From Bradyrhizobium sp. AUGA SZCCT0158 (GTDB taxonomy: Bacteria; Pseudomonadota; Alphaproteobacteria; Rhizobiales; Xanthobacteraceae): DNA of 64,000 nucleotides. The notes below the pieces were generated by a model. The model was given only the letters and a program-made list of their open reading frames with translations, had not been told where the DNA came from and did no database searches. The DNA lies in NCBI RefSeq assembly GCF_018130065.1, contig NZ_JAFCME010000012.1, positions 62,001 through 126,000 on the forward strand, in the 5' to 3' direction. The stretch's first letter is position 1, and every line of letters begins with the position of its first letter. Positions 5,358 through 54,739 of this stretch are shown here, in pieces. Made by a program: the position numbers and the translations under genes.

Positions 5358-5380
5358 CCGACTCTCCGATCTCAGCGCCT

Positions 5381-8300
5381 TTAGTGCCGGAGCGGCGTCC
5401 TCAAGTCGAGCGTCAAAGGAAATTCTATTGTGCGTTCCTCGGGCGGCAGATCGACCTTGCCCGGGGTGTGGCCGTGATCCTGAAACCGGGCCAGCCGCCG
5501 CGCCTCGGCCTCATAGGAATTGACCGGCTTGGTGTCATAGCTGCGGCCGCCGGGATGGGCGACATGATAGACGCAGCCGCCGAGCGAGCGGCCGTTCCAG
5601 GTATCAATTAAATCAAATGTCAGCGGGGCGTGGACCGGAATGGTCGGATGCAGCCCGGATGCCGGCTGCCAGGCCTTGAAACGGACGCCGGCGACCGCCT
5701 CACTGGCGCGGCCGGTGGCTGTCATCGGCATCCGCCGGCCATTGCAGGTGACGACGTGGCGGCCTTCGACAAAGCCCGACGCCTTGACCTGCAACCGCTC
5801 CACCGACGAATCGACATAACGCACGGTGCCGCCGGCCGAGCCCTCCTCGCCGAGCACGTGCCACGGCTCCAGCGCCTGACGCAGCTCCAGCGATACGCCG
5901 CCGTGATGGACCCGGCCGAACACCGGGAAACGAAACTCGAGCTGGGCCGAATACCATTCCGGCGAAAAATCGTAGCCGGACAGCTTGAGTTCTTCGAGCA
6001 CCCCCAAGAAATCTTCCCAGAGGAAATGCGGCAGCATGAAGCGATCATGCAGCGCGGTGCCCCAGCGCACGAATTGGCCTTGCTGCGGCTCGCGCCACAT
6101 TTTTGCGATCAGCGCCCGGATCAGGAGTTGCTGCGCCAGCGACATCCGCGGATCGGGCGGCATTTCCAGCGCGCGGAACTCGACGAGCCCGAGACGGCCG
6201 GTCGGGCCATCAGGCGAATAGAGCTTGTCGATGCAGATTTCGGCGCGATGGGTATTGCCTGTTATGTCGACCAGGATGTGCCGGAACAGGCGATCGACCA
6301 GCCATAGCGGCGCCTCGATGCCCGGCGGCGGCACATGGGCCAGCGCGATTTCAAGTTCATAGAGGCCGTCATGCCGCGCTTCGTCGATGCGCGGCGCCTG
6401 GCTGGTCGGGCCGATGAACATGCCCGAGAATAGGTAGGACAGCGACGGATGGCGCTGCCAGTACAGCACGAGACTCTTCAAGAGATCGGGCCGGCGCAGG
6501 AACGGCGAGTCCTGCGGCGTAGAGCCGCCGACCACGACGTGGTTGCCGCCGCCGGTGCCGGTGTGGCGGCCGTCGACCAGGAAACGGTTGGCGCCGAGGC
6601 GCGTTTTCGCGGCGTCCTCGTAAAGGCCGAAGGTGATGTCGACCGCCTCGCGCCAGCTCTGCGCCGGCTGGATGTTGATTTCGATCACGCCGGGATCGGG
6701 CGTCACCTTGATGACTTCGACGCGCGGATCGTATGGCGGCGAATAGCCCTCGACATGGACCTGCAATTTCAGCTCTTCGGCGGTCGCCTCCACCGCCGCG
6801 ATCAGCTCCAGATAATCTTCGAGCTTCTCGACCGGCGGCATGAAGGCGCACAAAACGCCGTCGCGGATTTCGATCGACATCGCCGTGCGCACGGGCTCGA
6901 GTTTTGGCTTCTCTTTGGCCTTCGCGTCCTCGGCCTTAGTCCCCGTGTCGGAAGCTGCCAGTTCGTCGCGCGGCTCCATCGGATCCTGCTCGACGATATA
7001 GGGATATTCTTCCGGCGGAATGTGTTCCAGCGAAGCGATCGGCAGCCGCAGGCCGAGGGGGGAATCGCCTGGAAACAGGAACAGGTGGCCGCGCCGGATC
7101 TTCCAGCGTTCGCTGCGCCAGTGGCCAGGTGGGTGCTTGAAGGCCTCGTTCCAGCGCTGGATCGGCAGCACAAATCCCTTTGGCTTGTTGAGGCCGGAAT
7201 CGAACACCCGCGCCATCCGCGCGCGTTCTTCCGGATCAGCCAATTTGGAGTCGGTCGGATCGACATTGGCCGGCAGCGCCGCTTCCTTCTGCAGCCAATG
7301 CGCGGTGTCCTCGAACGCGGGCAGCACGTAGTCGGTTGTGAGTCCGAGCTTTTGTGCGACGCCTTCGGCAAAATGCTCGGCGTCGGCGATTTCGGCCTTG
7401 CGCGGATTTTCGATGTTCGCGATCAGTTCGGCGTTCTTCCAGATCGGCACGCCATCCTTGCGCCAATAGAGCCCGAACGCCCAGCGCGGCAGGCTCTCGC
7501 CCGGATACCATTTGCCCTGCCCGTAATGCAGCAGGCCGCCGGGCGCAAAACGCACGCGTAATTTGCGAATGAGATCGTCAGCGAGCGTGCGCTTGGTCGG
7601 ACCGACCGCGGCGATATTCCACTCCGGCGATTCCAGATCGTCGACGGAGACAAACGTCGGCTCGCCGCCCATCGTCAGCCGCACGTCTTCCATTTTCAGA
7701 TCGGCGTCGACGGCTTCGCCTAACCTGTCGAGACGCGACCAGGATTCGTCCGAGAACGGCCGCGTGATCCGCGGCGCCTCGCGGATGCGCTTGACGCTCA
7801 TCTCGAAGCCGAATTCGGTGTTGGCGAATCCTGCGGTGCCCGAGATCGGCGCCGCCGAGCGGTAATGCGGCGTGGCGGCGACGGGGATGTGCCCCTCGCC
7901 GGTCAGCATGCCCGAGGTGACGTCGAAGCCGATCCACCCTGCCCCCGGCAGATAGACCTCGGCCCAGGCATGCAGGTCGGTGAAATCGCTTTCGACCTCG
8001 CGCGGGCCTTCGACCGGATCGATGTCGGGGCGGAGTTGAATGAGATAGCCGGAGACGAAACGCGCGGCGAGTCCGAGATGCCTGAAGATCTGGATCAGGA
8101 GCCAGGCGGAGTCGCGGCAGGAGCCGGAGCCGGCGGCCAGCGACTCCTCCGGCGTCTGGATGCCCGGCTCCATCCGGATGACGTAACCGATTTTCTTCTG
8201 CAGCTGCGCGTTGAGGTCGACCAGGAAATTGACCGTGCTGTCGGCCTCACGCGGGATGTCCTTCAGATAGGCGGCAAACAGCGGCCCCTCGTCCGAGGTC

Positions 8301-37453: not shown

Positions 37454-37521
37454 GCTGCTTGTTTTTCGCGCGCGATACCGTCACACTCCTTGCAACTAAA
37501 ACAAGACACGACGGGAGAAAC

Positions 37522-39102
37522 ATGTCCGCCACACAAGCGCCGGCAAATCTTGCCGATATGGTGCGCGAGCGCGCCAGGAGCCGCGGCAATGCGCTGGTCT
37601 ATGAATTCGAGGGACGTCAGACCAGCTTCGCCGAATTCGACATCAAGACCAACCGCGTTGCGAATGCGCTTGTAGCGCTCGGCGTCAAGCCGGGCGAGCG
37701 CATCGCTTATCTCGGCAAGAACAGCGACATCTATTTCGAACTGTTGATGGGCGCGATGAAGGCCAATGTGGTGATGGCGCCGGTGAACTGGCGGCTCGCC
37801 GGGCCCGAGGTCGCGTTCATCGTCGCGGATTGCCGGGCGCCGGTGCTGTTCGTCGGACCGGAGTTCATCACGCAAGCCCGCAATATCAAGCCGCAGCTGC
37901 CTGACCTTCGCACCATCATCACCACCGAAGGCGGCGCGCCGGAATGGCCGGATTTTACGGTGTGGCGCGATGCGCAGAGCGGCGATGACCCCAAGGTGCC
38001 GATCAGCCCCAAGGACGTCGCGATCCAGCTCTATACGTCGGGCACGACAGGCAAGCCGAAGGGCGCGATGCTGTCGCATGCCAATTTCCTCAACCTGGTG
38101 CAGACCGGCAGCGAGGCCGAGAAGCCCGACTGGAACAAATGGTCGACCGACGACGTCTCGCTGGTGGCAATGCCGATCTTTCACATCGGCGGCTCCGGCT
38201 GGGGCGTGATGGGGCTCTATCATGGCGCCAAGGGCGTGATCGCGCGCGAGTTCGATCCCACCAAGGTGCTGGATTTCTTCGAACAGTCCGGCATCACCAA
38301 ATTGTTCATGGTGCCGGCCGCGATGCAGTTCGTGGTGCGGCAGCCGCGGGCGCGGCAGGTCGATTTCTCGCGGCTTAAATACATGCTCTACGGCGCCTCG
38401 CCGATACCGGCGGCGCTGCTGAAGGAATGCATCGAGGTCTTCAAATGCGGCTTCGTGCAGATGTACGGCATGACCGAAACGACAGGCACTATCGTGGCGC
38501 TGCCGCCGGAGGACCACATCGAAGGCCTCGACCGCATGCGCTCGGCCGGCAAGGCGCTGCCCGGCATCGAACTTGCTATCCTCGACGCCGACGGCACGCG
38601 GCTGCCGGTCGGTGAAGTCGGCGAGATCGCCACGCGTTCCGGCTCCAACATGGTCGGCTATTGGAACCTGCCGGAAGCCACCGCCAGGACGCTCGACCGC
38701 GACGGCTGGCTGCGCACCGGCGATGCCGGCTATATGGATAAGGATGGCTATCTCTACATCCACGACCGCATCAAGGACATGATCATCTCCGGCGGCGAGA
38801 ACATCTATCCCGCCGAAGTCGAGAGCGCGATCTGCGATCACCCTGACGTCGCCGAAGCCGCCGTGATCGGCATCCCCGACGACAAGTGGGGCGAAGCGGT
38901 CAAGGCGATCGTGGTGATGAAGCCGGGCAAGCAAGCTACTGCCACCGACATCATCAACTTCACCCGCGAACGCATCGCCGGCTTCAAGACACCGAAGTCG
39001 GTGGATTTTCTCGAAGCGCTGCCGCGCAATCCGTCGGGCAAGATTTTGCGGCGGAATTTGCGCGACCCGTATTGGACGGGGAAGGACCGGCAGGTGAATT
39101 GA
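37522..39102 (+). CDS. Long-chain-type acyl-CoA synthetase (AMP-forming)
   Basis: ANL-superfamily ligase of 526 residues. QLYTSGTTGKPKGAMLSH (near residue 175), QMYGMTETTG, LRTGDAGYMDKDGYLYIHDR and the C-terminal NPSGKILRRNLRDPYW with the catalytic lysine are all present. It is distinct from the other ligase in the region, so the two probably serve different acids or stages. GGGAGAAAC precedes the ATG; upstream in-frame sequence is repeat. The gene follows the dienoyl-CoA-reductase-like SDR with a family A repeat between them. Confidence 0.9.
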   Translation: MSATQAPANLADMVRERARSRGNALVYEFEGRQTSFAEFDIKTNRVANALVALGVKPGERIAYLGKNSDIYFELLMGAMKANVVMAPVNWRLAGPEVAFIVADCRAPVLFVGPEFITQARNIKPQLPDLRTIITTEGGAPEWPDFTVWRDAQSGDDPKVPISPKDVAIQLYTSGTTGKPKGAMLSHANFLNLVQTGSEAEKPDWNKWSTDDVSLVAMPIFHIGGSGWGVMGLYHGAKGVIAREFDPTKVLDFFEQSGITKLFMVPAAMQFVVRQPRARQVDFSRLKYMLYGASPIPAALLKECIEVFKCGFVQMYGMTETTGTIVALPPEDHIEGLDRMRSAGKALPGIELAILDADGTRLPVGEVGEIATRSGSNMVGYWNLPEATARTLDRDGWLRTGDAGYMDKDGYLYIHDRIKDMIISGGENIYPAEVESAICDHPDVAEAAVIGIPDDKWGEAVKAIVVMKPGKQATATDIINFTRERIAGFKTPKSVDFLEALPRNPSGKILRRNLRDPYWTGKDRQVN

Positions 39103-39197: not shown

Positions 39198-40472
39198 TCA
39201 ATGCTTCCCCGCCCCCATATACCCGAACAAAAATCCCGCCACTTTCCGCTTCTGGATTTCCTCGCTGCCTTCGGTGATGCGGTAGCGGCGGTGGTGGCGG
39301 TAGATGTGTTCGAACGGTTTGTGGCGCGAGTAGCCCATGCCGCCATGGACCTGCATGGCGCGGTCGGCGGCTTCGCAGCAGAGGCGATTTGCCCAGAAAT
39401 TGCACATCGAGACCCGGTCGGAAAGCGTGTGCTCGACCTCGGCCTGGGTCAGCTTGTCCATCTCCCACGCGGTCTTGCGGATCAACAGCCTCAGCATCTC
39501 GGCTTGCGTGGCCAGTTCCACCAGCGGCCACTGGATCGCCTGGTTCTCGGCCAGCGCCTTGCCGAACGGCTTTCGCTCGCGCGCGTATTTAACGCTTTCG
39601 TTGATGCAGTAGACCGCGGCGCCGAGCGAACTCGCCGCCTGCCGGATCCGGTTCTCGTGCACGAAGCATTGCGCCAGCGACAGGCCGCGGCCGACCTCGC
39701 CGAACAGCGCATCGTCAGGCACGAACACGTCGGTAAAGCTGACACGGGGGTGATCGGTCGGCATGTTGAAGGTCCACATATACTCCTCGACCTTTACGCC
39801 TTCAGCTTTGGCCGGCACCAGGAGGCAGGTGATGCCGCGCGCGTCGCCGTCATCGCCTGAGGTGCGGGCGAACAGCGCACAATGCGTCGCCACATGCATG
39901 CCCGTGGTCCACATCTTCTGGCCGTTGACGATCCAGCCCTTGACGTTGTCACGGGTCGCCGGCACCGCCCTTGTTTCCATATGCGTGGCGTCGGAGCCGT
40001 GCTCGGGTTCCGTGAGGCCAAAGGTGATGCGGTACTTTCCGGTGATCGAACCGTCGATCATCGCCTTCTGTTCGTCGGTGCCGTAGCGGTCGAGCATGGT
40101 CACGATCGGCAGATTGCCGACGATCGAATGCTCGTTCTGCAGATCGTTGTGCAAGCCCAATCCCTGGGATGCAAAGTGCTCGCGGATCACGGCCATCCAG
40201 AGGTTGGAACCGTCCTTGCCGCCGTAGCGTTTCGGGATAGCAAAGCGCAGATGTCCAGCGGCGTCGGCGAGGTTTTTCGCCTTGCGCAGCAGCGCTTCCC
40301 ATTCATGCCGCGGCAATCCGCCCATGTCGAAATCGGTGCGCGCCCATTCGCGGCGATGGTCGAAGAAGCGGATGTTGTCGTCGGCCTCTTCCAGCGGCTT
40401 GATCTCGCGCGCGATGAACTTGTCGAGTTCGTCGAGGTAAGCGACGAGGTCGGCGGGCAATGCAAAATCCAC
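39198..40472 (-). CDS. Acyl-CoA dehydrogenase
   Basis: FAD-dependent acyl-CoA dehydrogenase of 424 residues. ITFGLTEPEHGSDATHMETRA is the FAD/substrate segment near residue 150 (read in two parts: ITFGLTEPEHGS, DATHMETRA). QVHGGMGYSRHKPFEHIYRHHRRYRITEGSEEIQ near the C-terminus carries the usual catalytic Glu region. It belongs to the longer-N-terminus, ACAD10/11-related or FadE-like group. Translation starts at GTG after GGGAGAG. It is divergent from a crotonase gene across a 205-base gap free of repeats. Electrons would pass to ETF. Confidence 0.9.
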   Translation of the reverse strand: MDFALPADLVAYLDELDKFIAREIKPLEEADDNIRFFDHRREWARTDFDMGGLPRHEWEALLRKAKNLADAAGHLRFAIPKRYGGKDGSNLWMAVIREHFASQGLGLHNDLQNEHSIVGNLPIVTMLDRYGTDEQKAMIDGSITGKYRITFGLTEPEHGSDATHMETRAVPATRDNVKGWIVNGQKMWTTGMHVATHCALFARTSGDDGDARGITCLLVPAKAEGVKVEEYMWTFNMPTDHPRVSFTDVFVPDDALFGEVGRGLSLAQCFVHENRIRQAASSLGAAVYCINESVKYARERKPFGKALAENQAIQWPLVELATQAEMLRLLIRKTAWEMDKLTQAEVEHTLSDRVSMCNFWANRLCCEAADRAMQVHGGMGYSRHKPFEHIYRHHRRYRITEGSEEIQKRKVAGFLFGYMGAGKH

Positions 40473-41575: not shown

Positions 41576-41950
41576 TCACTTATTCCCCAACTCCCTCTTG
41601 TACGACGCATAATTCGGCTGATCGACGGCGAGCTTGTCCATCGTGGTTTGCCAGAGATGATCGGCCAGCCCCGGCGTTTGCAGATCGACCTCGCCGTTTG
41701 CAATTTTATCCGACAGCGCGCGGTTGAGGTCTACCAGCGCGCCGTCGATGCCGAGCAGTTGCTTGAGCCGCGCGGCTTCCGCGCTATCGCTATCGCCTTC
41801 CAGCGCCAGTTGCCGCGTCACCAAGTCGAGGCCGTTGATGGCGACGCGGAGCTTGAAGGCGTTGTGGCCCTTGATGGCGGGCGTGATCTCGTTGCGCAGA
41901 AAATCCGCGACCGCCTTGATCAGCTCGGTGGGTGTCGGTTCGTCCTGCAT
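41576..41950 (-). CDS. DUF6285 small protein (LvaB-like partner of the kinase)
   Basis: Protein of 124 residues, mostly helical. ELIKAVADFLRNEITPAIKG opens the chain (residues about 9-28), followed by FKLRVAINGLDLVTRQL and a C-terminal QPNYASYKRE. This fits DUF6285, found beside phosphotransferases of the ACAD10/11 type. In the Pseudomonas putida levulinate operon a small protein in the same position (LvaB) is required for the activity of the kinase LvaA. Here the gene begins one base after the kinase stop, so a kinase partner role is inferred from that arrangement. No catalytic motif is visible. Confidence 0.75.
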   Translation of the reverse strand: MQDEPTPTELIKAVADFLRNEITPAIKGHNAFKLRVAINGLDLVTRQLALEGDSDSAEAARLKQLLGIDGALVDLNRALSDKIANGEVDLQTPGLADHLWQTTMDKLAVDQPNYASYKRELGNK

Positions 41951-41951
41951 C

Positions 41952-42938
41952 TTATTTCCCCCTCGGGGCCAGCAGTCTCAGCAAATCGATTTCGGTCTCC
42001 GACGAACGCCGCCCGATCATCGCGCGCTCCATCGAATGATCGGGGCCCTGGCGAAACCGCTGCATCATGCCGCAGCACATGATGCCCCAGCGCAGCGTGC
42101 CCATCACTTCCCAGAACATCACGCGGTCGGGATCGGCCTTGCGCCCGGCCGCCTCATAGCCGGCGAACAGATCTTCGCGCGAACCAAAGCCCCCGACCGG
42201 CTTGTCGATCTCACCAAAGCGCCAGGAATTGACGCAGATCCAGCCGAGATCCTCCATTGGATCGCCGAAATGCGCCAGCTCCCAATCCAGCACGGCGCGG
42301 ACGCCGTCGGGCCCGATGATGAGGTTGCCGTGGCGGAAATCGCCGTGCACCAGCGTTACTTCCTTGGAAGGACCGGGATCGCGTTCGCGCAGCCAGCGCA
42401 GTGCCAGCTCGAACACCGGACGCGGCCGGCCAAAACTGCGATACTCGCGATCGAGATCGGCGATCTCCTTTGTCGCCGTCATCTCGCGCAGCTTTGGCAG
42501 TTTTGCCGCCGGCAAGCCGTGGATGCCCGCGACCACCCCACCAAGCTGGCGCGCCAGCATCGGGCGCGCCGGTGCGAATTGTTCGTCACGCAGAATTTTT
42601 CGCGCGATGGTTTCGCCCTCGATGCGTTGCATGATGAAGCCGGTGCCGAGTTCGTCCTCGGGCTTCAGGACATGCATCACGCGCGGCGACGGCAGGCCGG
42701 CATCGTGCGCCAGCTGCATCAGCGTCGCCTCGGCATCGAGCCCGGCGGCGCGGCCGGGTGACGCGCCATAGCCCGGCGGCGCGCGGCGCAGGATCGCGCC
42801 GACATTGCCGCTGGGATGCACGATGTCGAACGTCCAGGTCTCCTGGCTGGCGCCGCCGGAAAGCTTTGCCGCGCCAGTGACGCCGGTCGCGCCCGGATAC
42901 CAGGCGGCGACGCAGCGTCCGAGTTCGGCCTCGATCAT
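41952..42938 (-). CDS. Acyl-CoA-linked APH-fold phosphotransferase (LvaA / ACAD10-11 N-domain type)
   Basis: Kinase-like protein of 328 residues with the aminoglycoside phosphotransferase fold. Catalytic loop LVHGDFRHGN (His198, Asp200, Asn205) and metal motif LDWE (Asp218) are intact; GGASQETW is the nucleotide-binding loop and the FIMQRIEGE hinge follows. The C-terminal WEVMGTLRWGIMC matches the kinase domain of human ACAD10/ACAD11 and bacterial LvaA, which phosphorylate 4-hydroxyacyl-CoAs. Antibiotic resistance is not suggested. It overlaps the upstream PaaG-like isomerase gene by four bases (ATGA) and is followed directly by the DUF6285 gene. Confidence 0.88.
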   Translation of the reverse strand: MIEAELGRCVAAWYPGATGVTGAAKLSGGASQETWTFDIVHPSGNVGAILRRAPPGYGASPGRAAGLDAEATLMQLAHDAGLPSPRVMHVLKPEDELGTGFIMQRIEGETIARKILRDEQFAPARPMLARQLGGVVAGIHGLPAAKLPKLREMTATKEIADLDREYRSFGRPRPVFELALRWLRERDPGPSKEVTLVHGDFRHGNLIIGPDGVRAVLDWELAHFGDPMEDLGWICVNSWRFGEIDKPVGGFGSREDLFAGYEAAGRKADPDRVMFWEVMGTLRWGIMCCGMMQRFRQGPDHSMERAMIGRRSSETEIDLLRLLAPRGK

Positions 42939-43726
42939 TTGCCCTTGAACTTGGCTGGACGCTTTTCAAGGAACGCGGTGACGCCTTCCTTGAAATCCTC
43001 CGCCGAGCCCGCGATACGCTGCGACTCGAACTCGAGGTTGAGCTGTTCCTCGAAGGAGTTTTCCGGGCTGTCCCAATAAAGCTTGCGGATCAGTGACAGC
43101 GCGATCGTTGGGCCATTGGCGAGATCATGCGCCAGCTTCATCGCCTCTTCCATCAGGACCGCATCGTCATGGACGCGGTTGACGAGACCCCATTCCAGCG
43201 CCTTTTCCGCCGGCAACCGCTCGCCCATCAGCGACAACTCGACCGAGCGCGCCTTGCCGATCATGCGCGGCAATAGCCAGGTCGATCCGCAATCCGGCAC
43301 CAGGCCGATGCGGCGGAACGCCTGCAGGAAATAGGACGAGCGCGCGCACAGGATCATGTCGCCCATCAGCGCAAAGCTCATGCCGGCGCCGGCGGCGGGG
43401 CCGTTGACGGCGGTCACGAGCGGGCAATGAAGCTTGCGGATACGCCGCAGGAAGGGATGGAAGCCAACTTCCAGCGAGGCGCCGGCGTTGCTCTTGCCGG
43501 GCTTCTGATTGTTGCGGCCCTGCAAATTGGCGCCGGTGCAGAAGGCGCGGCCGGCGCCTGTCAGCACGACGCAGCGCACTTGTTCCTTCTTGTCCTCGAT
43601 CTCGTCGAGCGCATCGGCAAGCCCACCCAGCATGTCCATCGAGACCGCGTTCATGACCTCCTGGTGGTCGAGCCTGAGAACGGCGACCGGGCCATCGAAA
43701 TCGAGCGTGACGTGCTTAAACTGCAT
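42935..43726 (-). CDS. PaaG-like enoyl-CoA isomerase/hydratase
   Basis: Crotonase of 263 residues. Oxyanion segments are GRAFCTGANLQGR and GPAAGAGMSFALMGDMILC (in part). The active-site region FRRIGLVPDCGSTWLLPR places an aspartate (Asp145) where PaaG and delta3-delta2-enoyl-CoA isomerases have theirs, so double-bond isomerisation is more likely than hydration. First gene of the operon with the kinase and DUF6285 genes; a 3-enoyl-CoA produced by phosphate elimination would need just such an isomerase. It is divergent from an SDR gene 150 bases away. Confidence 0.88.
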   Translation of the reverse strand: MQFKHVTLDFDGPVAVLRLDHQEVMNAVSMDMLGGLADALDEIEDKKEQVRCVVLTGAGRAFCTGANLQGRNNQKPGKSNAGASLEVGFHPFLRRIRKLHCPLVTAVNGPAAGAGMSFALMGDMILCARSSYFLQAFRRIGLVPDCGSTWLLPRMIGKARSVELSLMGERLPAEKALEWGLVNRVHDDAVLMEEAMKLAHDLANGPTIALSLIRKLYWDSPENSFEEQLNLEFESQRIAGSAEDFKEGVTAFLEKRPAKFKGK

Positions 43727-43876
43727 TGTTTCCTCATGAGTTGTGTTTACGCGCTATCAGGCAGCGCGATGGGCGGATGTGTTGCTTGGGACCATATTTG
43801 ATTTTCCTGATCGGCTTGTCCATGGTTGAACGCGAACATCTGCCCGCCATCCGGCGCACGACTTGAGGATACATTC

Positions 43877-44656
43877 ATGAGCATTTTCGACCTCTCCGGC
43901 CGCGTCGCAATCGTCACCGGCGGTAATGGCGGCATCGGCCTCGGCATCGCGCAGGCGCTGAACGCGGCCGGCTGCACCGTTTCGATCTGGGGCCGCAACG
44001 CCGACAAGAATGCGAGCGCGGCTGCAAGCCTCGCCAAGGGTCCCGGCAGGGTCGATACAAGGATCTGCGACGTCAGTGACCCCGCCTCGGTCAAGGCCGC
44101 GATGAAGGCCACGCTGGATGCGCTCGGCCGCGTCGACGGCTGCTTTGCCAATGCCGGCATCGGCGGCGGCGGACGGCGCGCCTTCATCGACCGCACCGAG
44201 GAGGAATGGCGAAAAATGTTCGCGACCAATCTCGACGGCGTCTTCCATGTGTTTCAGGCCGCCGCCCGCCACATGACCGAGCGCGCGGAAGCCGGCGACA
44301 AGTTCGGACGGCTGGTGGCGACCTCGAGCCTGGCGTCGCTGTTCGGCACCGCGCGCAACGAGCACTACGCCGGCACCAAGGCCGCGCTGAACGCGCTGTG
44401 CCGCGCGCTCGCCGTCGAACTCGCCCGTCACGGCGTGACGGCGAACGCGATCCTGCCCGGCTGGATCAAGAGCGACATGACGGCGGGCATCATGGCGAAT
44501 GACAAGTTCGTCGCCAACGTGATGCCGCGCATTCCAGTGCGCCGCTTCGGCGAGCCCGCGGATTTCGGCGGCATCGCGGTGTACATCATGAGCCAGGCCT
44601 CGTCGTATCATACGGCGGATTGCTTTGTGATCGATGGCGGGTATACGGCGTTTTGA
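43877..44656 (+). CDS. SDR-family oxidoreductase
   Basis: Classical SDR of 259 residues. TGGNGGIGLGIAQAL is the nucleotide-binding motif, SIWGRNADK suggests NADP preference, FANAGIGGGGR is the NAG motif and SSLASLFGTARNEHYAGTK holds the catalytic Ser, Tyr and Lys. IDGGYTAF ends the chain as usual. The likely reaction is reduction of a keto group or oxidation of an alcohol on an acyl chain. Divergence from the kinase operon suggests it makes or uses hydroxyacyl compounds handled there (LvaD-like role), an inference. Confidence 0.85.
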   Translation: MSIFDLSGRVAIVTGGNGGIGLGIAQALNAAGCTVSIWGRNADKNASAAASLAKGPGRVDTRICDVSDPASVKAAMKATLDALGRVDGCFANAGIGGGGRRAFIDRTEEEWRKMFATNLDGVFHVFQAAARHMTERAEAGDKFGRLVATSSLASLFGTARNEHYAGTKAALNALCRALAVELARHGVTANAILPGWIKSDMTAGIMANDKFVANVMPRIPVRRFGEPADFGGIAVYIMSQASSYHTADCFVIDGGYTAF

Positions 44657-46406: not shown

Positions 46407-46645
46407 TGTTGTCTCCCTGCCGCCGCGGCGGCATGCCGTGGCAGACATGACAGGATGTATGGAGCCTACTGGCCTCCCTTCAAGAAGCCATGGTGCGTCG
46501 AGGCGCCGCGGATTACCCGGATGTAATCTGGCGGATAGCGGACGGAATCGATTAGTTAATGGCTTGAGCCATCCAGCGGGTATTCTGGCGAATTAGTGAT
46601 CCAGCCGAGGTTCCCTTGGTGGCCGGAACGTGAGAAAATGCACGG

Positions 46646-47017
46646 GTGAAAATATCGTTCCACCTTTCCCGGCTGCTGGCGATCTTCGTGATCGCAGGGC
46701 TCGTGTTTGCGCCGCTTTCCCGGCCTGCGAATGCGGGCGGCGGTATGGCCATGGCTGCGCCGGTGGCGGCGGAGATGTCTGAAATGGCCGCCGACATGCC
46801 ATGCTGCCCGGACAAATCCGTGCCCATGGATTGCGACCAGTGCCCCCTGATGGCGCTCTGCATGGTCACGAATTTTCAGGTGCCGTCGCCGGCCGGAATG
46901 ATTGAAATCCGGCCCGTCACGGTCCGGCTGCTGGCGCCGGGCAGCGATCCCGAAGCGGATAGCCTCGGCCAACATCCCCCGCCAAGACCTCCCCGACTCC
47001 TGGTCCATTCGGCTTAA
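46646..47017 (+). CDS. Small exported Met/Cys-rich protein upstream of the metal efflux genes
   Basis: Protein of 123 residues starting at GTG. A signal peptide is likely (residues 1-30, hydrophobic, ending PANA). The mature part has many Met (MAMAAPVAAEMSEMAADMP, positions 34-51) and five Cys (53, 54, 63, 66, 72) within 20 residues, including a C-x2-C. This composition suits Cu(I) or Ag(I) binding in the periplasm, a CusF-like job, although it does not share the CusF fold signature that I can see. I do not recognise a named family. It leads the efflux operon, 83 bases before the FixH/YtkA-like gene. Confidence 0.65.
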   Translation: MKISFHLSRLLAIFVIAGLVFAPLSRPANAGGGMAMAAPVAAEMSEMAADMPCCPDKSVPMDCDQCPLMALCMVTNFQVPSPAGMIEIRPVTVRLLAPGSDPEADSLGQHPPPRPPRLLVHSA

Positions 47018-47100
47018 CGCCTGACGTCGTGCGGCGCTTTGATGCGCCCGTGATCCATGCCGCTCACGCGGCAGATCCAGGACAATCGAGGATATAGAAA

Positions 47101-47508
47101 ATGAAGACGTTCACCCATGCGCGCGCCTTGCGGGCCGCGCTGATCGCTGCCGCCATCGGCGGCGCAAGCACGGCCGCGCTCGCGGACATCAAGGACTACA
47201 AGTTCGAACTCGTCGATCAGACCGTCCAGGCCGGACCCGACAAGACCATCACGGTTCGGCTGATGAACACGAAAACCGGAAAGCCGGTACCGGATGCCGT
47301 AATCTTTGCCACCCGCCTGGACATGGCTCCGGACGGCATGCAGGAAATGGCGACCAAGCTCACGCCGGTGCCGGGTGCAGAGCCAGGTACCTATAAGTTC
47401 AAGGCGACATTCGGCATGGCCGGCCGCTGGCAGCTTTCGCTCGGCGCGAAGGTCCAGGGCGAGACCGGTACCGTCGACAACAAGCTTGTCATCACGGCGC
47501 AGAAATGA
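47101..47508 (+). CDS. FixH/YtkA-like periplasmic protein
   Basis: Exported protein of 135 residues. The signal peptide ends after ALA at residue 28. The mature domain is an immunoglobulin-like beta sandwich of the YtkA/FixH type: VRLMNTKTGKPVPDAVIFAT, MAPDGMQEMATKL, PGTYKFKATFGMAGRWQLSL. Such proteins are often encoded with copper or heavy-metal RND systems and may carry metal to the adaptor. The Met in MAPDGM is a possible metal ligand. The stop overlaps the start of the adaptor gene (ATGA), so the proteins are coupled. Confidence 0.82.
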   Translation: MKTFTHARALRAALIAAAIGGASTAALADIKDYKFELVDQTVQAGPDKTITVRLMNTKTGKPVPDAVIFATRLDMAPDGMQEMATKLTPVPGAEPGTYKFKATFGMAGRWQLSLGAKVQGETGTVDNKLVITAQK

Positions 47509-48917
47509 ACCGCGCCGTCATCGCAAGCGCCACCGCCGTGTTGATCGCGGCGGCGGGTGCCGGGCTCGTCCTCGCCGGCGCGCAGGGACTGCCCGCGCGC
47601 GCCATCGCCATGATCACGCGCGCTGCGGCCGACGAGAGCCGCGCGCCGATCTATTTTCAGGACCCGGACGGCAGACCGTCGTATTCGCTGGCGCCGAAAA
47701 AGACGCCCGACGGCCGCGACTATCGCCCCGTTCCGGCCGGAGCCGACGTCAGCTTCGATGAGGAGGCTCCCGAGAAGACAACGCCGGCGGCGTCCGCCGG
47801 CGGCGCTGATCGCAAGATCAAATACTACCGCAACCCAATGGGACTGCCGGACACCTCCCCTACCCCCAAGAAGGATCCGATGGGGATGGATTACATCGCC
47901 GTCTATGAGGGCGAGGACAGCGATGACGGTTCGGTAAAATTGTCGCCGGGAAAAATCCAGCGCACCGGCGTCAAGTCCGAGCCGGCGGCGCCGCGCACCA
48001 TCCGCAGCACGATCCACGCGCCGGGCACCATTCAGCTCGACGAGCGCCGCGTCTCCGTGATCGCGATGCGGGCCGAAAGCTACCTGCAGAAGATCGCCAA
48101 CGTCACCACCGGGAGCCGCGTCGCCAAGGGCCAGCCCTTGATGGAAGTCTACAGTCCGGCGATATCGTCGGCTGCGGCCGAATACATTTCGACTATCAAC
48201 TCGAAGGCCATCAGTGGCGACGCGGCCTATGGCAAGGGTTCACGGCAGCGGCTGATGAATCTCGACGTGCCCGAAGCGGCCATCGTCGCGATGGAGAAAA
48301 GCCGGACGGTTCCGATCGGGATCGAGTGGACGTCGCCGCGCGACGGCATCGTGCTCGAACGCAACGCCATCGAGGGCGCGCGCGCACAGCCGGGCGACGT
48401 TCTATTCCGGATCGCCGACCATGCTTTGCTCTGGGCCATTATCGACGTCGCCGAACGCGACATGGGGATGCTGACGGTGGGGCAATCGGCGACCGTCAAG
48501 GCGCGCGGCTTTCCCGGCCGCACCTTCACCGGGACAATCAGCGTCATCTATCCGCAGATCAACAAGGAGACGCGCACCGGGCGCTTGCGAATCGAGCTAG
48601 CCAATCCCGACCTGGTGCTGATCCACGACATGTATGTCGAGGCCGAAATCGACATCGGCAATTCCACGCCGGTGCTGACAATCCCGGAGAGCGCCGTGAT
48701 GGACACCGGCCGGCGTCAGGCGGTGTTCGTTGACAAGGGCGAAGGCCGTTTCGAGCCGCGCGAAGTCAAGCTCGGCCATCGCGGCGATGGTTATGTGGAG
48801 GTACGGGACGGCGTCAGCGAAGGCGAGCCGGTGGTGGTTTCGGCGAACTTCCTGATCGATGCGGAGAGCAATCTGAAGGCCGCGCTGAAAGGTTTTGCCG
48901 ACGGAGCGCAGCCATGA
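47505..48917 (+). CDS. RND efflux periplasmic adaptor, CusB type
   Basis: Membrane-fusion protein of 470 residues linking the inner-membrane pump to an outer-membrane channel. An N-terminal hydrophobic anchor is followed by two heavy-metal-binding-like segments: YFQDPDGRPSYSLAPKK (from residue 50) and YYRNPMGLPDTSPTPKKDPMGMDY (from 107, written in part). The beta-barrel and hairpin regions follow, with GTIQLDERRVSVIAMR and VAKGQPLMEVYSP. The Met-rich second segment suits Cu or Ag. It overlaps both neighbours by four bases. Confidence 0.92.
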   Translation: MNRAVIASATAVLIAAAGAGLVLAGAQGLPARAIAMITRAAADESRAPIYFQDPDGRPSYSLAPKKTPDGRDYRPVPAGADVSFDEEAPEKTTPAASAGGADRKIKYYRNPMGLPDTSPTPKKDPMGMDYIAVYEGEDSDDGSVKLSPGKIQRTGVKSEPAAPRTIRSTIHAPGTIQLDERRVSVIAMRAESYLQKIANVTTGSRVAKGQPLMEVYSPAISSAAAEYISTINSKAISGDAAYGKGSRQRLMNLDVPEAAIVAMEKSRTVPIGIEWTSPRDGIVLERNAIEGARAQPGDVLFRIADHALLWAIIDVAERDMGMLTVGQSATVKARGFPGRTFTGTISVIYPQINKETRTGRLRIELANPDLVLIHDMYVEAEIDIGNSTPVLTIPESAVMDTGRRQAVFVDKGEGRFEPREVKLGHRGDGYVEVRDGVSEGEPVVVSANFLIDAESNLKAALKGFADGAQP

Positions 48918-51900
48918 TCGCCCGCCTGATCGCGTGGTCGGCGCGCAATCTGCTGCTGGTGCTGTTCGGCGCCGGTTTCGCCACCGCCGCCGGCCTCTAT
49001 GCGCTGGCGCATCTGCCGCTGGACGCCATTCCCGACCTCTCCGACACCCAGGTGATCGTCTATACGGAGTATCCCGGCCAGGCGCCGCAGGTGATCGAGG
49101 ACCAGGTCACCTACCCCTTGACCACGGCGATGCTGACGGTGCCGCGCTCAAAGGTGGTGCGCGGGTTCTCGTTCTTCGGCGTGTCGTTCGTCTATGTGAT
49201 CTTCGAGGACGGCACCGATATCTACTGGGCGCGCTCGCGCGTGCTCGAATTCCTCAACAGCGCTTCGGCGCGCCTGCCCGCGGGCGTGACGCCGACAATG
49301 GGACCGGACGCCACCGGCGTCGGCTGGGTCTACCAATACGCCGTGATGTCGAAAGAGCTGAACCTTTCCGACACCCGCGCGATCCAGGACTGGAATCTGA
49401 AGTTCGCACTTGCCAAGGCCGAAGGCGTCGCCGAGGTCGCCAGCGTCGGCGGCTTCGTCCGGCAATACAACGTGGTGCTCGATCCGCAACGCATGCGCGA
49501 CCTCGGCATCACCATGCCAAAAATGCGCGACGCCATCCGCGCCAGCAATGCCGATGTCGGCGGCCGCACCGTCGAATTGTCCGAGTTCGAATACGTCATT
49601 CGCGGCAAGGGCTACATCAAGGGTATCAACGACCTCGGCAATATCGTGCTCAAGAGTAGCGGCGGCACGCCGGTGCTGCTGAAAGACGTCGCCCGCGTCG
49701 AACTCGGGCCCGACGAGCGGCGCGGCATCACCGAACTCAACGGCGAAGGCGAAGTCGCCAGCGGAATCGTGCTGCAGCGTTTCGGCGTCAATGCGCTGGA
49801 CGTGATCCAGAACGTCAAGAAGCGGATTGCCGAGATCGCCAGCGGCCTGCCGAAATCGGTCGAGATCGTCGCGGTCTACGACCGCTCGGACCTGATCAAC
49901 GCCGCGATCGATACGCTCAAGCGCACCCTGTTCGAAGAGAGCGTGATCGTCGGGCTGGTGTGCATCGTGTTCCTGCTGCATGTGCGCAGCGCCCTGGTCG
50001 CGATCCTGATGCTGCCGGTCGGCGTGCTGATGGCGTTCGGCGCCATGAAGCTGCTCGGCCTCGGCTCCAACATCATGAGCCTCGGCGGCATCGCGATCGC
50101 GATCGGCGCGATGGTCGATGCGGCGATCGTGATGATCGAAAACGCGCACAAGCATCTGGAGCGCGCCGAGCCCGGGCGATCGCGCATCGATGTGCTGATC
50201 GAGGCGGCGTCACAGGTGGGGCCCGCGCTGTTCTTCAGCCTGATGATCATCACGGTGTCGTTCATGCCGATATTTACGCTGGAATCCCAGGAAGGCCGGT
50301 TGTTCAGCCCGCTCGCCTTCACCAAGACCTTTGCGATGGCGGCGGCGGCCTTGTTGTCGGTGACGCTGGTGCCGGCACTGATGGTGATCTTCGTGCGCGG
50401 CAAGATCATTCCCGAGCACAGGAACCCGATCAACCGCTTCCTGATCTGGGTCTACCGTCCCGTCATCAAGGCCGTGATGCGCGCCAAGGTGCTGGTGATC
50501 CTTCTGGCGGTAGCGGTGCTCGCCGTGACGATCTGGCCGGCGCGGCAGCTCGGCACCGAGTTCATGCCTAACCTCAACGAAGGCACTTTGCTCTACATGC
50601 CGACGACACTGCCCGGCATATCCGTCACCAAGGCCGGTGAATTGCTGCAGACCCAGGATCGGATCATCCGAAGTTTTCCGGAGGTCGCTTCCGTGTACGG
50701 CAAGGCCGGACGCGCCCTGACGGCGACCGATCCCGCCCCCTCCGAAATGTTCGAGACCGTGATCAATCTCAAACCAAAGGCGGAATGGCGGGCCGGCGTC
50801 ACCGTGGAGAGCCTGACCGCCGAGATGGACCGGGCGCTGCAGTTTCCCGGCGTTTCCAACGCCTGGACCCAGCCGATCAAGGCGCGCATCGACATGCTGT
50901 CGACCGGCATCCGGACGCCTGTTGGCGTCAAGGTGATCGGCACCGACCTCAACGAGATCGACCGGCTCGCAAAACAGATCGAACAGGTGCTCAAAGCGGT
51001 GCCCGGCACGTCATCGGCCTATGCCGAACGCGGCATCGGCGGCTATTACCTCGACATCGTCCCCGACCGCGCCGCACTGGCGCGCTACGGCATCATGGTG
51101 CAGGACGTCAACGACGTGATCGCGACCGCGCTTGGCGGCCAGACCGTCACCACGACCGTCGAAGGGCGCCAGCGCTTCGGCGTCAACATGCGCTATCCCC
51201 GCGATCTGCGCGGCGATACGCAATCGATCATCCGTGACGTGCTGGTGCCGATGCCGGGCGGCGGCGCGGTGCCGCTCGGCGAAGTCGCCAAGGTCGCACC
51301 GTCGCGCGGGCCGACCTCGATCCGTACCGAGAACGGGCAGCTCGCGACCTACATCTATGTCGATATCCGCGACCGCGATATCGGTGGCTACGTCGCTGAC
51401 GCGCAGGCTGCCGTAAAGGCCAGCATCGAATTTCCGCCGGGCGCCTATGTGATGTGGAGCGGCCAATACGAGTATCTCGAACGCGCCACGGCGCGGCTGA
51501 AGATCGTGGTGCCGGTGACGCTGATGATCATCTTTCTGCTGCTCTATCTCAACTTCCGCTCGCTGACCGAAACCATGATCGTGATGCTGTCGCTGCCGTT
51601 CGCGCTGGTCGGCGGCCTGTGGCTGATGTGGTGGCTGGGCTTCAACCTGTCGGTCGCCGTCGTCGTCGGCTTCATCGCGCTTGCCGGCGTTGCCGCCGAG
51701 ACCGGCGTGGTGATGCTGATCTATCTCAACCAGGCGCTCGACGAGATCAGGGCACGCCGGGCGGCCGAAGGCCGCGCGCTGACGAAGCAGGACCTTTACG
51801 ATGCGATCATGGAGGGCGCCGTCGAGCGGGTGCGGCCGAAAATGATGACGGTCGTTGCCATCATGGCGGGGCTATTGCCGATCATGTGGAGCACCGGCAC

Positions 51901-52078
51901 GGGCTCCGAAATCATGCAGCGTATCGCGGTGCCGATGATCGGCGGCATGATTTCATCGACGCTGCTGACCTTGATCGTGATTCCCGCGATCTATGCGCTG
52001 GTCAAAGGCGCGCGGCTGGAGCGGGTCCGCAGCCCGGCGATGAATCTCAATGGCAAGCCGGGCGAGGCCGGAATATGA
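48914..52078 (+). CDS. cusA: Heavy-metal RND efflux pump, CusA type (Cu(I)/Ag(I))
   Basis: Inner-membrane RND transporter of 1054 residues, HME family, twelve predicted membrane segments with two large periplasmic loops. Three methionines fit the metal-selecting triad of E. coli CusA: Met562 (LLYMPTTLPG), Met612 (APSEMFETV) and Met661 (RIDMLSTGI), with the same spacing as Met573/623/672. The transmembrane acid in GAMVDAAIVMIENAHKH (Asp402) supports proton coupling. Copper or silver export is therefore favoured over Zn/Co/Cd. No outer-membrane CusC-like gene is in the window, so the channel must come from elsewhere. Confidence 0.93.
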   Translation: MIARLIAWSARNLLLVLFGAGFATAAGLYALAHLPLDAIPDLSDTQVIVYTEYPGQAPQVIEDQVTYPLTTAMLTVPRSKVVRGFSFFGVSFVYVIFEDGTDIYWARSRVLEFLNSASARLPAGVTPTMGPDATGVGWVYQYAVMSKELNLSDTRAIQDWNLKFALAKAEGVAEVASVGGFVRQYNVVLDPQRMRDLGITMPKMRDAIRASNADVGGRTVELSEFEYVIRGKGYIKGINDLGNIVLKSSGGTPVLLKDVARVELGPDERRGITELNGEGEVASGIVLQRFGVNALDVIQNVKKRIAEIASGLPKSVEIVAVYDRSDLINAAIDTLKRTLFEESVIVGLVCIVFLLHVRSALVAILMLPVGVLMAFGAMKLLGLGSNIMSLGGIAIAIGAMVDAAIVMIENAHKHLERAEPGRSRIDVLIEAASQVGPALFFSLMIITVSFMPIFTLESQEGRLFSPLAFTKTFAMAAAALLSVTLVPALMVIFVRGKIIPEHRNPINRFLIWVYRPVIKAVMRAKVLVILLAVAVLAVTIWPARQLGTEFMPNLNEGTLLYMPTTLPGISVTKAGELLQTQDRIIRSFPEVASVYGKAGRALTATDPAPSEMFETVINLKPKAEWRAGVTVESLTAEMDRALQFPGVSNAWTQPIKARIDMLSTGIRTPVGVKVIGTDLNEIDRLAKQIEQVLKAVPGTSSAYAERGIGGYYLDIVPDRAALARYGIMVQDVNDVIATALGGQTVTTTVEGRQRFGVNMRYPRDLRGDTQSIIRDVLVPMPGGGAVPLGEVAKVAPSRGPTSIRTENGQLATYIYVDIRDRDIGGYVADAQAAVKASIEFPPGAYVMWSGQYEYLERATARLKIVVPVTLMIIFLLLYLNFRSLTETMIVMLSLPFALVGGLWLMWWLGFNLSVAVVVGFIALAGVAAETGVVMLIYLNQALDEIRARRAAEGRALTKQDLYDAIMEGAVERVRPKMMTVVAIMAGLLPIMWSTGTGSEIMQRIAVPMIGGMISSTLLTLIVIPAIYALVKGARLERVRSPAMNLNGKPGEAGI

Positions 52079-52108
52079 TGTTGGCCCCGCAGGGCGAAGG
52101 AGGACGCG

Positions 52109-52732
52109 ATGGAAAGCGAAAGCCGCCAGGCGCACTGGGAGAACGTCTACGCCAGCAAAGGCGAGAACGAGGTCAGCTGGTTTCAGGAAAACCCTGCCCC
52201 GTCGCTGGCGCTGATCGCCGAGATCGGGGCGACGCCTCATTCGGCGATCATCGACATCGGCGGCGGCGCGTCACGGCTGGTCGATCACCTCATCGATCAG
52301 GGATTTTGTGACGTCACCGTGCTCGATCTATCCGCGGCGGCATTGGAGGCCACCAAAGCCCGTCTCGGCGAACGCGCCCCACGCGCGCATTGGCTTGTGG
52401 CGGACGCCACCACATGGCAGCCGTCGCGGGCGTATGACATCTGGCATGACCGGGCGGCGTTTCACTTTTTGACCGAGGAGAGTGACCGCGCGAGCTACAT
52501 CGCACGGTTCAAGCAGGGTTTGAAGATCGGCGGCCACGCCATCATCGCGACCTTCGCGCTGGACGGACCCGAGAAATGCAGCGGCCTGCCGGTGATGCGT
52601 TACGATGCGGCGCGGCTCCGGCAGACGCTGGGATCGGGGTTCAAGCTGCTGCAAAGCCAGCGCGACGACCATGCCACGCCCTGGGGATCGCAACAGCACT
52701 TTCAATTCAGCGTCTTTCAGCGCGTCGAGTAA
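52109..52732 (+). CDS. Class I SAM-dependent methyltransferase
   Basis: Methyltransferase of 207 residues. Motif I is IIDIGGGASRLVDHL (near residue 47), followed by VTVLDLSAAALEATKARLG, the acidic motif II. WLVADATTW and DIWHDRAAFHFLTEESDRASY follow. The HWENVYASKGENEVSWFQ start is shared with thiopurine/tellurite-methylase-like proteins, which methylate soft metalloids or thiols; that hint fits the metal efflux context but is not proof. An AAGGAGG RBS precedes the ATG 31 bases after the cusA stop, so it is probably in the same operon. Confidence 0.82.
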   Translation: MESESRQAHWENVYASKGENEVSWFQENPAPSLALIAEIGATPHSAIIDIGGGASRLVDHLIDQGFCDVTVLDLSAAALEATKARLGERAPRAHWLVADATTWQPSRAYDIWHDRAAFHFLTEESDRASYIARFKQGLKIGGHAIIATFALDGPEKCSGLPVMRYDAARLRQTLGSGFKLLQSQRDDHATPWGSQQHFQFSVFQRVE

Positions 52733-52802
52733 TTCTGACGGGACTTTGATGAACGCCCACCGGCGGCACTGTTAAGATCACGACGCACAGCAGGAGAATT
52801 TC

Positions 52803-53336
52803 ATGAAAATCGTTGCCACCGCGATCACCGTCCTCGCCCTCGCTTCGACCGCCGCAATGGCGCAGTCGCCCTATGCGGGGATGCAGGGCCGCTCGATCAA
52901 GGCACTGTCCGCGCAGCAGATCGATGATCTCAGGGCCGGCAGGGGCATGGGCCTGGCGCTGGCGGCCGAACTGAACGGTTACCCCGGTCCGATGCACGTG
53001 CTGGAATTGTCCGACAAGCTGGCGCTGTCGGCGGCGCAGAAGCAACGGATTCAAACACTGTTTGAAACAATGAAAGCGGAAGCGACGCCAATCGGTCTCA
53101 GCCTGATCGAGCAGGAAAGCGCGCTCGACCGGCAATTCGCCGGCCGTTCGATCACATCAGACGCGCTGAGGGAAGCGACGACGAAGATCGGCCAGACGCA
53201 GGCGGAACTGCGCAACGCGCATCTGAAATATCACCTCGAAACGGCGCAAATCCTGTCTCCCGATCAGATGAAACAATATGCCCAGTTGCGGGGATACGCA
53301 TCCGATTCCCCGGCGCGGCATCACCGCATGCATTAG
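52803..53336 (+). CDS. Spy/CpxP-type (LTxxQ) periplasmic protein
   Basis: Exported helical protein of 177 residues. The signal peptide ends at AMA, residue 20. Two LTxxQ-like motifs are visible: LSAAQKQRI and LSPDQMKQY. Spy and CpxP-type proteins act as ATP-independent chaperones or stress sensors and are induced by copper and other envelope stress. Tail is His/Met-containing (HHRMH), possibly a metal contact. It follows the methyltransferase by 70 bases with AGGAG before the ATG, and probably belongs to the metal resistance operon. Confidence 0.8.
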   Translation: MKIVATAITVLALASTAAMAQSPYAGMQGRSIKALSAQQIDDLRAGRGMGLALAAELNGYPGPMHVLELSDKLALSAAQKQRIQTLFETMKAEATPIGLSLIEQESALDRQFAGRSITSDALREATTKIGQTQAELRNAHLKYHLETAQILSPDQMKQYAQLRGYASDSPARHHRMH

Positions 53337-53464
53337 CGGCAGGGCGCTGCGCGCGGAGCCTCGTCCCGCTTGTGCAGGGACCGCGCTGGCGTCTAGATTG
53401 CGGCCCAACAGGCGCGTTCCAAAGATTATCCGCAGAATGGAAAACGCCGCATGGGAGGACCCTG

Positions 53465-54739
53465 ATGAAGCATGCCTACATCCCGCGAACGACGACCTAC
53501 AACCTCAATCCGGGCGAAGAGCTCAACGATCTCCGGATGTCGGATGAGGTCCGTCCGCTCTACGAGCACGTCAAGAAATTCATCCGCGAGACCGTCGACC
53601 CGATGTCGGTCGAATTCGCAAAGCTTGGCGAGAAGAAGACCGACCGCTGGAGTTTTACGCCGGAACAGCTGGCCTGCCTGCAGAAGGCCAAGGACAAGGC
53701 CAAGGAAGAAGGCCTGTGGAACTTCTTCCTGCCCGATGACGAGACCGGCCAGGGCCTCAAGAACCTCGACTACGCCTATATCGCGGTCGAGCTCGCGAAA
53801 AACCCGATGGCGTCGGAGACCATGAACTGCTCGGCGCCCGACACCGGCAACATGGAAGTGCTGGAGCGCGTCGGCACCAAGGCGCAAAAGGAGAAGTGGC
53901 TGAAGCCGCTGCTATCAGGCGAAATCCGCTCGGCCTATGCGATGACCGAGCCGAATGTCGCCTCCTCCGACGCCAAGAACATCTCGACCACGGCAAAGCT
54001 GGTCGGCGACGAATGGGTGATCAACGGCGAGAAGTACTACATCTCCGGCGCCGGCGATCCGCGCTGCAAGATCATGATCGTCATGGTGAAGACCAATCCG
54101 GACGCACCGCCGAGCAAGCAGCAGTCGCAGATCCTGGTGCCGATCGACACCCCCGGCGTGGAAATCCTGGGCCCGATGCACGTGTTCGGCCACGACCACG
54201 CGCCGCGCGGCCACATGCATCTGCGCTTCAACAATTGCCGGGTGCCAAAGGAAAACATGCTGCTCGGCGAAGGCCGCGGCTTTGAAATCTCGCAGGTCCG
54301 CCTCGGGCCGGGACGCATCCATCACTGCATGCGCACCATCGGCAAGGCCGAGAAGGCGCTCGACCTGATGGTCCAGCGCGGCCTGACCCGCGAAGCCTTC
54401 GGCAAGAAGATCGCGCATCTCGGCGGCAACATGCAGATCATCGCGCAGGCGCGCTGCGAGATCGAGGCGATGCGGCTGATGGTGCTCAAGGCGGCCAAGG
54501 CGATGGACGTGCTCGGCAACAAGGAAGCGCGGATCTGGGTCAGCATGGTGAAAGCCATGGTGCCCGAGCGCACCTGCAAGATCATCGACCAGGCAATCCA
54601 GATGCACGGCGCCACCGGTATTTCGCACTGGAGCCCGCTCGGCGAAATGTACCAGGACGTCCGCCACCTGCGCTTCGCCGACGGTCCGGATGAGGTGCAC
54701 TGGATGGTGGTGGGCCGGCATGAACTGAGCATGCCGTAG
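53465..54739 (+). CDS. ACAD10/11-like acyl-CoA dehydrogenase
   Basis: Acyl-CoA dehydrogenase of 424 residues with the signatures of the ACAD10/ACAD11 dehydrogenase domain and bacterial LvaC: CSAPDTGNMEVLERVG, AMTEPNVASSDAKNI, FGHDHAPRGHMHLRF, RLGPGRIHHCMRTIG and HLRFADGPDEVH. Enzymes of this group act on phosphorylated 4-hydroxyacyl-CoAs, eliminating phosphate, as well as on branched acyl-CoAs. Its natural partner kinase in this window is the APH-fold protein about 10.5 kb upstream. The ATG follows GGGAGGA; the longer upstream frame lacks similarity. It is followed by a repeat and a flavin-reductase-like gene. Confidence 0.9.
   Translation: MKHAYIPRTTTYNLNPGEELNDLRMSDEVRPLYEHVKKFIRETVDPMSVEFAKLGEKKTDRWSFTPEQLACLQKAKDKAKEEGLWNFFLPDDETGQGLKNLDYAYIAVELAKNPMASETMNCSAPDTGNMEVLERVGTKAQKEKWLKPLLSGEIRSAYAMTEPNVASSDAKNISTTAKLVGDEWVINGEKYYISGAGDPRCKIMIVMVKTNPDAPPSKQQSQILVPIDTPGVEILGPMHVFGHDHAPRGHMHLRFNNCRVPKENMLLGEGRGFEISQVRLGPGRIHHCMRTIGKAEKALDLMVQRGLTREAFGKKIAHLGGNMQIIAQARCEIEAMRLMVLKAAKAMDVLGNKEARIWVSMVKAMVPERTCKIIDQAIQMHGATGISHWSPLGEMYQDVRHLRFADGPDEVHWMVVGRHELSMP

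Follow-up and report, generated by a model that had tools for sequence, protein, structure and literature searches.

A putative lvaAB-type kinase-DUF6285 gene cluster for 4-hydroxyacyl-CoA degradation in Bradyrhizobium sp. AUGA SZCCT0158

The window analyzed here, a stretch of 64,000 nucleotides from Bradyrhizobium sp. AUGA SZCCT0158 (assembly GCF_018130065.1, contig NZ_JAFCME010000012.1, positions 62,001 to 126,000 of the forward strand), carries a gene cluster with an APH-fold kinase and a small protein of the family DUF6285. The cluster probably lets this soil bacterium degrade hydroxylated fatty acids, the hydroxyl group being tagged with phosphate and then removed. It was interpreted, with a probability of about 0.6, as a device of the lvaAB type, known from the lva operon of Pseudomonas putida, which brings 4-hydroxyacyl-CoAs into beta-oxidation. 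The observed basis of this reading comprises protein families, catalytic residues, the identity of LvaB as a DUF6285 protein, the clade placement of the kinase, synteny, and co-occurrence; we infer the substrate, the kinase-DUF6285 complex, and every reaction step. In the proposed route, the acyl-CoA ligase would make the CoA ester, and the short-chain dehydrogenase/reductase (SDR) P0004 may convert a 4-oxo group into the 4-hydroxy group. With the DUF6285 protein P0001 holding or activating it, the kinase P0002 would phosphorylate the 4-hydroxyl, and the dehydrogenase P0005 would remove the phosphate in a redox-neutral FAD reaction to give 2-enoyl-CoA. The dehydrogenase P0006, the crotonases, and general beta-oxidation would complete the breakdown of the chain. 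The genes of the cluster are as follows:

37519-39102, plus strand: acyl-CoA ligase (PF00501), a possible LvaE-like step
39198-40472, minus strand: P0006, acyl-CoA dehydrogenase of the ordinary type with a Glu base, without phosphate-handling residues
40675-41457, plus strand: second enoyl-CoA hydratase-family (crotonase) protein (PF00378, 212 bits)
41576-41950, minus strand: P0001, DUF6285 protein of the LvaB family, 124 aa (PF19802, 108.1 bits, cut-off 28.1)
41952-42938, minus strand: P0002, LvaA-like APH-fold kinase of the DUF6285-linked group, a putative 4-hydroxyacyl-CoA kinase (PF01636, 117.8 bits, cut-off 23.2)
42935-43726, minus strand: P0003, PaaG-like crotonase-fold protein with Asp145 in LVPDCG, probably an enoyl-CoA isomerase
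43877-44656, plus strand: P0004, divergent SDR oxidoreductase (PF13561), possibly an LvaD-like 4-oxoacyl-CoA reductase
53465-54739, plus strand: P0005, ACAD10/11-type dehydrogenase with the motif FADGPDEVH (top PDB match ACAD11, 386 bits)

The original prediction had named the isomerase with Asp145, the kinase motifs, the spacing of the DUF6285 gene, the divergent SDR, and the FADGPDEVH dehydrogenase, all of which were located; the ligase, P0006, and the second crotonase, which it left out, are the other half of the cluster. One base separates the end of the kinase gene (41952) from the ATG of the DUF6285 gene (41950), and the P0003 gene overlaps the kinase gene by 4 bases. P0002 keeps HGDFRHGN (D200, N205) and LDWE (D218), the equivalents of the catalytic Asp, the Asn, and the metal-binding Asp of APH kinases, roles taken in part from PMC12440821. 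The genome encodes three related kinases, including P0002, and a single copy of DUF6285, which lies inside the window. Synteny was examined in 34 loci of the same genus, all picked for having DUF6285, with a match defined as an identity of at least 60%. DUF6285, the kinase, the crotonase, the SDR, P0006, and the second crotonase occurred together within about 20 kb in all 34 loci, and this recurrence means that the gene association is not due to chance; the acyl-CoA ligase was found in 32 of them. DUF6285 is present in 57 of 61 genomes of the genus. In one of these genomes (L163, G336), the DUF6285 match is split into two pieces that overlap but lie in different frames, which may point to a frameshift or a sequencing error.

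LvaB is a DUF6285 protein. The protein at the lvaB position of P. putida matches PF19802 at 76.1 bits (cut-off 28.1), and the profile search proposed in the original prediction for the 124-residue protein of the window likewise gave a score over the cut-off. In P. putida KH-21-134 (L256), the gene order is a divergent regulator-like gene, the kinase, a 118-aa protein, a dehydrogenase, an SDR, a ligase, a DUF485 protein, and a sodium:solute symporter, which fits the lva genes (lvaRABCDEFG) described in the consulted part of PMC6692424; the regulator was called lvaR-like by its similarity to that of locus L180, itself typed by eye. For the LvaA branch, the best 80 of 335 relatives from a contig scan with an LvaA-like kinase were taken, and in every one of these 80 loci a DUF6285 profile built in this study had a match within 600 bases downstream of the kinase. 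They were chosen by kinase similarity alone, hence this is the fairer figure of DUF6285 linkage for that branch. Fusions of kinase and DUF6285 were found in 15 rows, corresponding to 11 distinct genes after four duplicates had been removed by place.

The AlphaFold2 model, computed from P0001 together with 48 LvaB-type rows, predicts five helices (mean pLDDT 92, pTM 0.67), and Leu10, Arg46, Leu99, and Pro112 are invariant across these 49 sequences. A Foldseek search of the DUF6285 fold against the PDB listed 16 matches, none at E <= 0.001; a second structural comparison reached a Z of 6.5 at best, a value that in helical bundles may reflect just a common arrangement, and a PDB sequence search gave two matches with E values of 0.14 and 0.25. 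These searches revealed no convincing relative of DUF6285 in the PDB. The protein may act as a partner or activator of the kinase, because the two are fused or closely adjacent and because, according to the consulted part of PMC6692424, Rand et al. 2017 reported an LvaA-LvaB pull-down and an lvaB mutant that fails to grow. The term DUF6285 was not met in the literature searched.

The kinase was placed by scores, gene context, and two trees. Compared with the three related kinases of the genome, an LvaA of P. putida gives 144 bits with P0002 but 78 and 66 bits with the others. The kinase comparison comprised 305 rows with duplicates, which are not distinct genes, and its P0002-like loci were mostly selected via DUF6285. 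DUF6285 was adjacent or fused in 243 of the 246 rows nearest P0002 or LvaA, the remaining three being tandem neighbors of a kinase with DUF6285, and was behind the kinase in none of the 59 rows nearest ACAD10/11-type kinases. In the midpoint-rooted tree, P0002 falls in a 43-row clade (99/92) beside the LvaA group (34 rows, 100/99; 35 rows including Thermus, 95/58), and a 22-row group that contains ACAD11, PDB entry 3dxp, and the genome's remaining two related kinases stands apart from the 78 DUF6285-linked rows. In a second tree, to which six outgroup APH proteins from the same genome were added, five of the six rooted between the DUF6285-linked and the ACAD10/11 sides; separate clades were formed by the LvaA rows (100/99) and by the inner P0002 rows (100/98), and the position of several P0002-like rows between the two was not resolved. 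With moderate confidence, sequence comparison thus places P0002 with LvaA and the DUF6285-linked kinases, outside the ACAD10/11 kinase clade. A further check of the P0002 branch used seven plasmid loci retrieved by their similarity to P0002 (33-48% identity): DUF6285 was directly behind the kinase in four and directly in front of it in one (Nocardia). Since the two genes are neighbors in five of seven, the confidence in the lvaAB-type reading was left unchanged.

This placement bears on the original prediction of a split ACAD10/11 or lva-like route, in which P0002 would be a free-standing ACAD10/11 kinase domain and P0005 the ACAD domain. P0005 is clearly of the ACAD11 type; however, P0002 gives 52 bits to ACAD11, while a 352-aa kinase on contig C2 gives 256 bits and adjoins an ACAD11-type dehydrogenase of its own (C2:216000-230000, L015 5993-8444). 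Given also the separate clades in both trees and the 59 ACAD10/11-type rows without DUF6285 behind, the split is very improbable for the window and was rejected. The term describes the C2 pair instead, and the window system is considered lvaAB-like because P0002 lies outside the ACAD10/11 clade and the member of that clade is on C2. The original prediction is supported in part: the kinase resembles LvaA, LvaB belongs to DUF6285, and an ACAD11-type dehydrogenase is associated with the cluster. The genome encodes at least three ACAD11-type enzymes (window, C2, and C8). SDR-like and histidine-phosphatase-like open reading frames (ORFs) were noted by eye near the C2 pair. On contig C1 (C1:160001-180000, L017, 10686-13009), an ACAD10/11-type kinase lacking DUF6285 adjoins a Glu-type dehydrogenase that resembles P0006 (57%), which is a third kinase-dehydrogenase pairing in the genome. 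In the Pseudomonas-like genus of G505, relatives of the C2-type (ACAD10/11-type) kinase (E <= 1e-15) were found in 196 of 199 genomes.

Residues R279, H287, R290, and D406 of P0005 align with R626, H634, R637, and D753 of mouse ACAD11; the residue numbers of PMC12440821 are one higher than the chain index and were matched by motif. In the consulted part of that paper, replacing R626, H634, or R637 by Ala or Leu in ACAD10/11 constructs was the most disruptive to ACAD activity. The Arg/His/Arg/Asp signature was found in 29 of 30 P0005-type rows (one not covered), in all 26 rows nearest the C2 enzyme, and in 70 of the 71 rows closest to LvaC of Pseudomonas, the last row having no coverage at the Asp position. 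By alignment, P0005 has the residues for ACAD11-type phosphate handling, including the Asp base. P0006 has F/Q/S/E at the four signature columns, as do all 48 P0006-type rows, and because of this replacement it likely performs an ordinary oxidation; a role as phosphate eliminator by the ACAD11 mechanism is disfavored by its residues.

In the genus, P0005 is present in 29 of the 34 loci, after the SDR and always on its strand, with a gap of 0.7-1.03 kb in 21 loci and 2.1-6.7 kb in eight; the five loci without it had just 6.8-7.1 kb of sequence on that side. The gap in the window is 8.8 kb, and this separation coincides with a metal-efflux block that is unmatched in the available stretches of seven same-genus relatives, chosen for having P0005 missing or far:

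46511-53447, between the SDR and P0005: genes for a YtkA-like protein, CusB/HlyD-type and AcrB-type efflux proteins, a methyltransferase, and a heavy-metal-resistance protein

Co-occurrence was calculated for 290 genomes of the class, 73 of which have DUF6285. P0005-type enzymes were found in 23 genomes, 22 of them with DUF6285 (5.8 expected), and the P0006 subfamily in 47 genomes, 46 of them with DUF6285 (11.8 expected); 22 of the 23 genomes with the P0005 type also have the P0006 subfamily. P0005-type enzymes span 14 families and P0006-type enzymes 23. The Fisher values for both co-occurrences overstate independence, since the sampled genomes are related. Genus synteny, class co-occurrence, and the signature residues bear out the assignment of P0005 as the ACAD11-type enzyme of this system. 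Of the dehydrogenase subfamilies, that of P0006, which the original prediction did not use, has the widest co-occurrence with DUF6285.

The crotonase P0003 has PaaG of Escherichia coli (4fzw) as its best PDB match (230 bits), with the PDCG motif and Asp145 aligned; it scores above the cut-off of NF004635 'enoyl-CoA hydratase/isomerase' and below that of PaaG TIGR02280 (274.5 vs 345.15). The original prediction had it convert a 3-enoyl-CoA formed by phosphate elimination. According to the consulted parts of PMC11342911 and PMC12440821, ACAD10 and ACAD11 yield 2-enoyl-CoA themselves, and in the former the ACAD10 product co-eluted with 2-trans-hexenoyl-CoA. Since the published chemistry gives 2-enoyl-CoA directly, the isomerase step is unneeded and was rejected. 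A PaaG-like isomerization of other unsaturated intermediates by P0003 is possible.

Several observations weigh against the lvaAB-type reading. With identities of 33% between P0002 and LvaA and 25% between P0001 and LvaB, the substrate may differ. The DUF6285 link of the P0002 clade is not independent, its rows having been found mostly through DUF6285, and in the outgroup tree the DUF6285-linked side (88/97) includes one long outgroup row. Among the seven plasmid loci, the closest, in Nonomuraea gerenzanensis (L334; 1995-2345, 6948-8927; 48%), has its DUF6285 gene at a distance of about 6 kb and on the opposite strand, and the DUF6285 match at the Rhodococcus plasmid locus is weak (E 0.005). 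P0005 and DUF6285 lie within 25 kb on one contig in only three of 22 genomes, and two of these three belong to the genus of the window; they share a contig in only eight of 22, and fragmented assemblies hide some pairs. Among the 73 genomes with DUF6285, 24 encode the P0006 type but not the P0005 type, and 27 lack both. None of the four dehydrogenases of this genome that were compared is LvaC-type (best 33%), and P0004 (33% to LvaD, compared with SDRs of its own genome) and the ligase (34% to LvaE) are no nearer LvaD and LvaE than generic relatives are.

The figures for P0006 suggest another arrangement, in which the kinase pair of the P0002 clade serves another hydroxyacyl-CoA (e.g., branched, cyclic, or longer), P0006 is its working partner, and P0005 is a fellow traveler of the same catabolic lifestyle. 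The P0006 type has the more frequent co-occurrence given above, lies within 25 kb of DUF6285 in nine of 46 genomes (16 of 46 on one contig) compared with three of 22 for P0005, and directly follows the kinase-DUF6285 pair on a Sulfitobacter plasmid. However, the uniform F/Q/S/E residues make ACAD11-style phosphate removal by P0006 unlikely, and P0005 is part of the cluster in the genus, so this arrangement was considered rather unlikely. Slightly less probable still is a true levulinate (4-oxopentanoate) pathway, that is, an lva operon apart from gene order. An LvaA/LvaB-like pair, an SDR, a ligase, and a phosphate-handling ACAD do occur together in the genus, but the dehydrogenase P0005 is ACAD11-type and 31% identical to LvaC (P0006, 27%), and the presence of a further dehydrogenase, P0006, and of two crotonases points to chains that are longer or branched.

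Under the lvaAB-type reading, DUF6285, a family of unknown function, gains a testable role, and LvaB is given a family identity. Two easily merged 4-hydroxyacyl-CoA routes are also separated, one with ACAD10/11-type kinases, without DUF6285 in the rows examined, and the other with LvaA-type kinases and DUF6285; a genome holding both kinds of kinase is well suited to finding out what DUF6285 contributes. More tentatively, DUF6285 might be a dedicated partner (activator or substrate-presenting subunit) of a whole superclade of acyl-CoA kinases, with an LvaA branch working with LvaC-type enzymes and a window-type branch working with P0006- and P0005-type enzymes on a non-levulinate substrate class. 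No description of such a substrate class for the second branch was found in the literature searched, nor was there any mention, in the parts of it consulted, that LvaB belongs to DUF6285, that the kinases form two branches, or that P0006 is linked to DUF6285. A search linking Bradyrhizobium, levulinic acid, and acyl-CoA dehydrogenase gave no literature match. The presence of lva-type genes is itself not new, since the consulted part of PMC6692424 reports lvaABCD homologues in Alpha-, Beta-, and Gammaproteobacteria.

Compared with the lva operon of P. putida, the window shares an APH kinase directly followed by DUF6285, a dehydrogenase with the Arg/His/Arg/Asp signature, an SDR, and an acyl-CoA ligase. 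It differs in its dehydrogenase, which is of the ACAD10/11 and not the LvaC type, in a kinase of another branch, in the additional P0006 and two crotonases, and in having genes on both strands; by dehydrogenase type, as judged from sequence, it is not an lva operon proper. The consulted part of PMC11342911 gives identities of 62% and 56% between ACAD10/11 and LvaC, unlike the 31-33% found here between LvaC of the KH-21-134 operon (not KT2440) and two of the ACAD11-type enzymes encoded by the Bradyrhizobium genome. In Pseudomonas-like genomes, ACAD11-type genes standing alone were dropped as lva candidates because their loci did not show the operon order.

With animal ACAD10 and ACAD11, the window shares the ACAD domain, matched by P0005 together with the four signature residues, and the same two-step chemistry would be expected. 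The window kinase, in contrast, is encoded by its own gene, belongs to another clade, and is paired with DUF6285, and the genome's own ACAD10/11-type kinase sits beside an ACAD11-type dehydrogenase elsewhere. Plasmids of Thermus thermophilus (pTT27) and Sulfitobacter pontiacus also carry the kinase-DUF6285 pair beside a ligase, an SDR, or crotonases. The Thermus cluster differs in having an LvaC-like dehydrogenase and a histidine phosphatase:

T. thermophilus HB8 pTT27 (L011), 3097-6998: SDR, Arg/His/Arg/Asp dehydrogenase, kinase, DUF6285, and histidine phosphatase in a row

The same gene order was seen in Azospirillum B510 pAB510b, and at Pseudomonas locus L279 the DUF6285 and dehydrogenase genes are separated by an ORF judged by eye to be phosphatase-like. 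In S. pontiacus S1704 (L012 and L014), the order on one plasmid is ligase, kinase, DUF6285, P0006 type, two crotonases, and thiolase; this strain differs from the window in that the P0006 type stands beside the kinase-DUF6285 pair, and the P0005 relative (74%) is on another plasmid.

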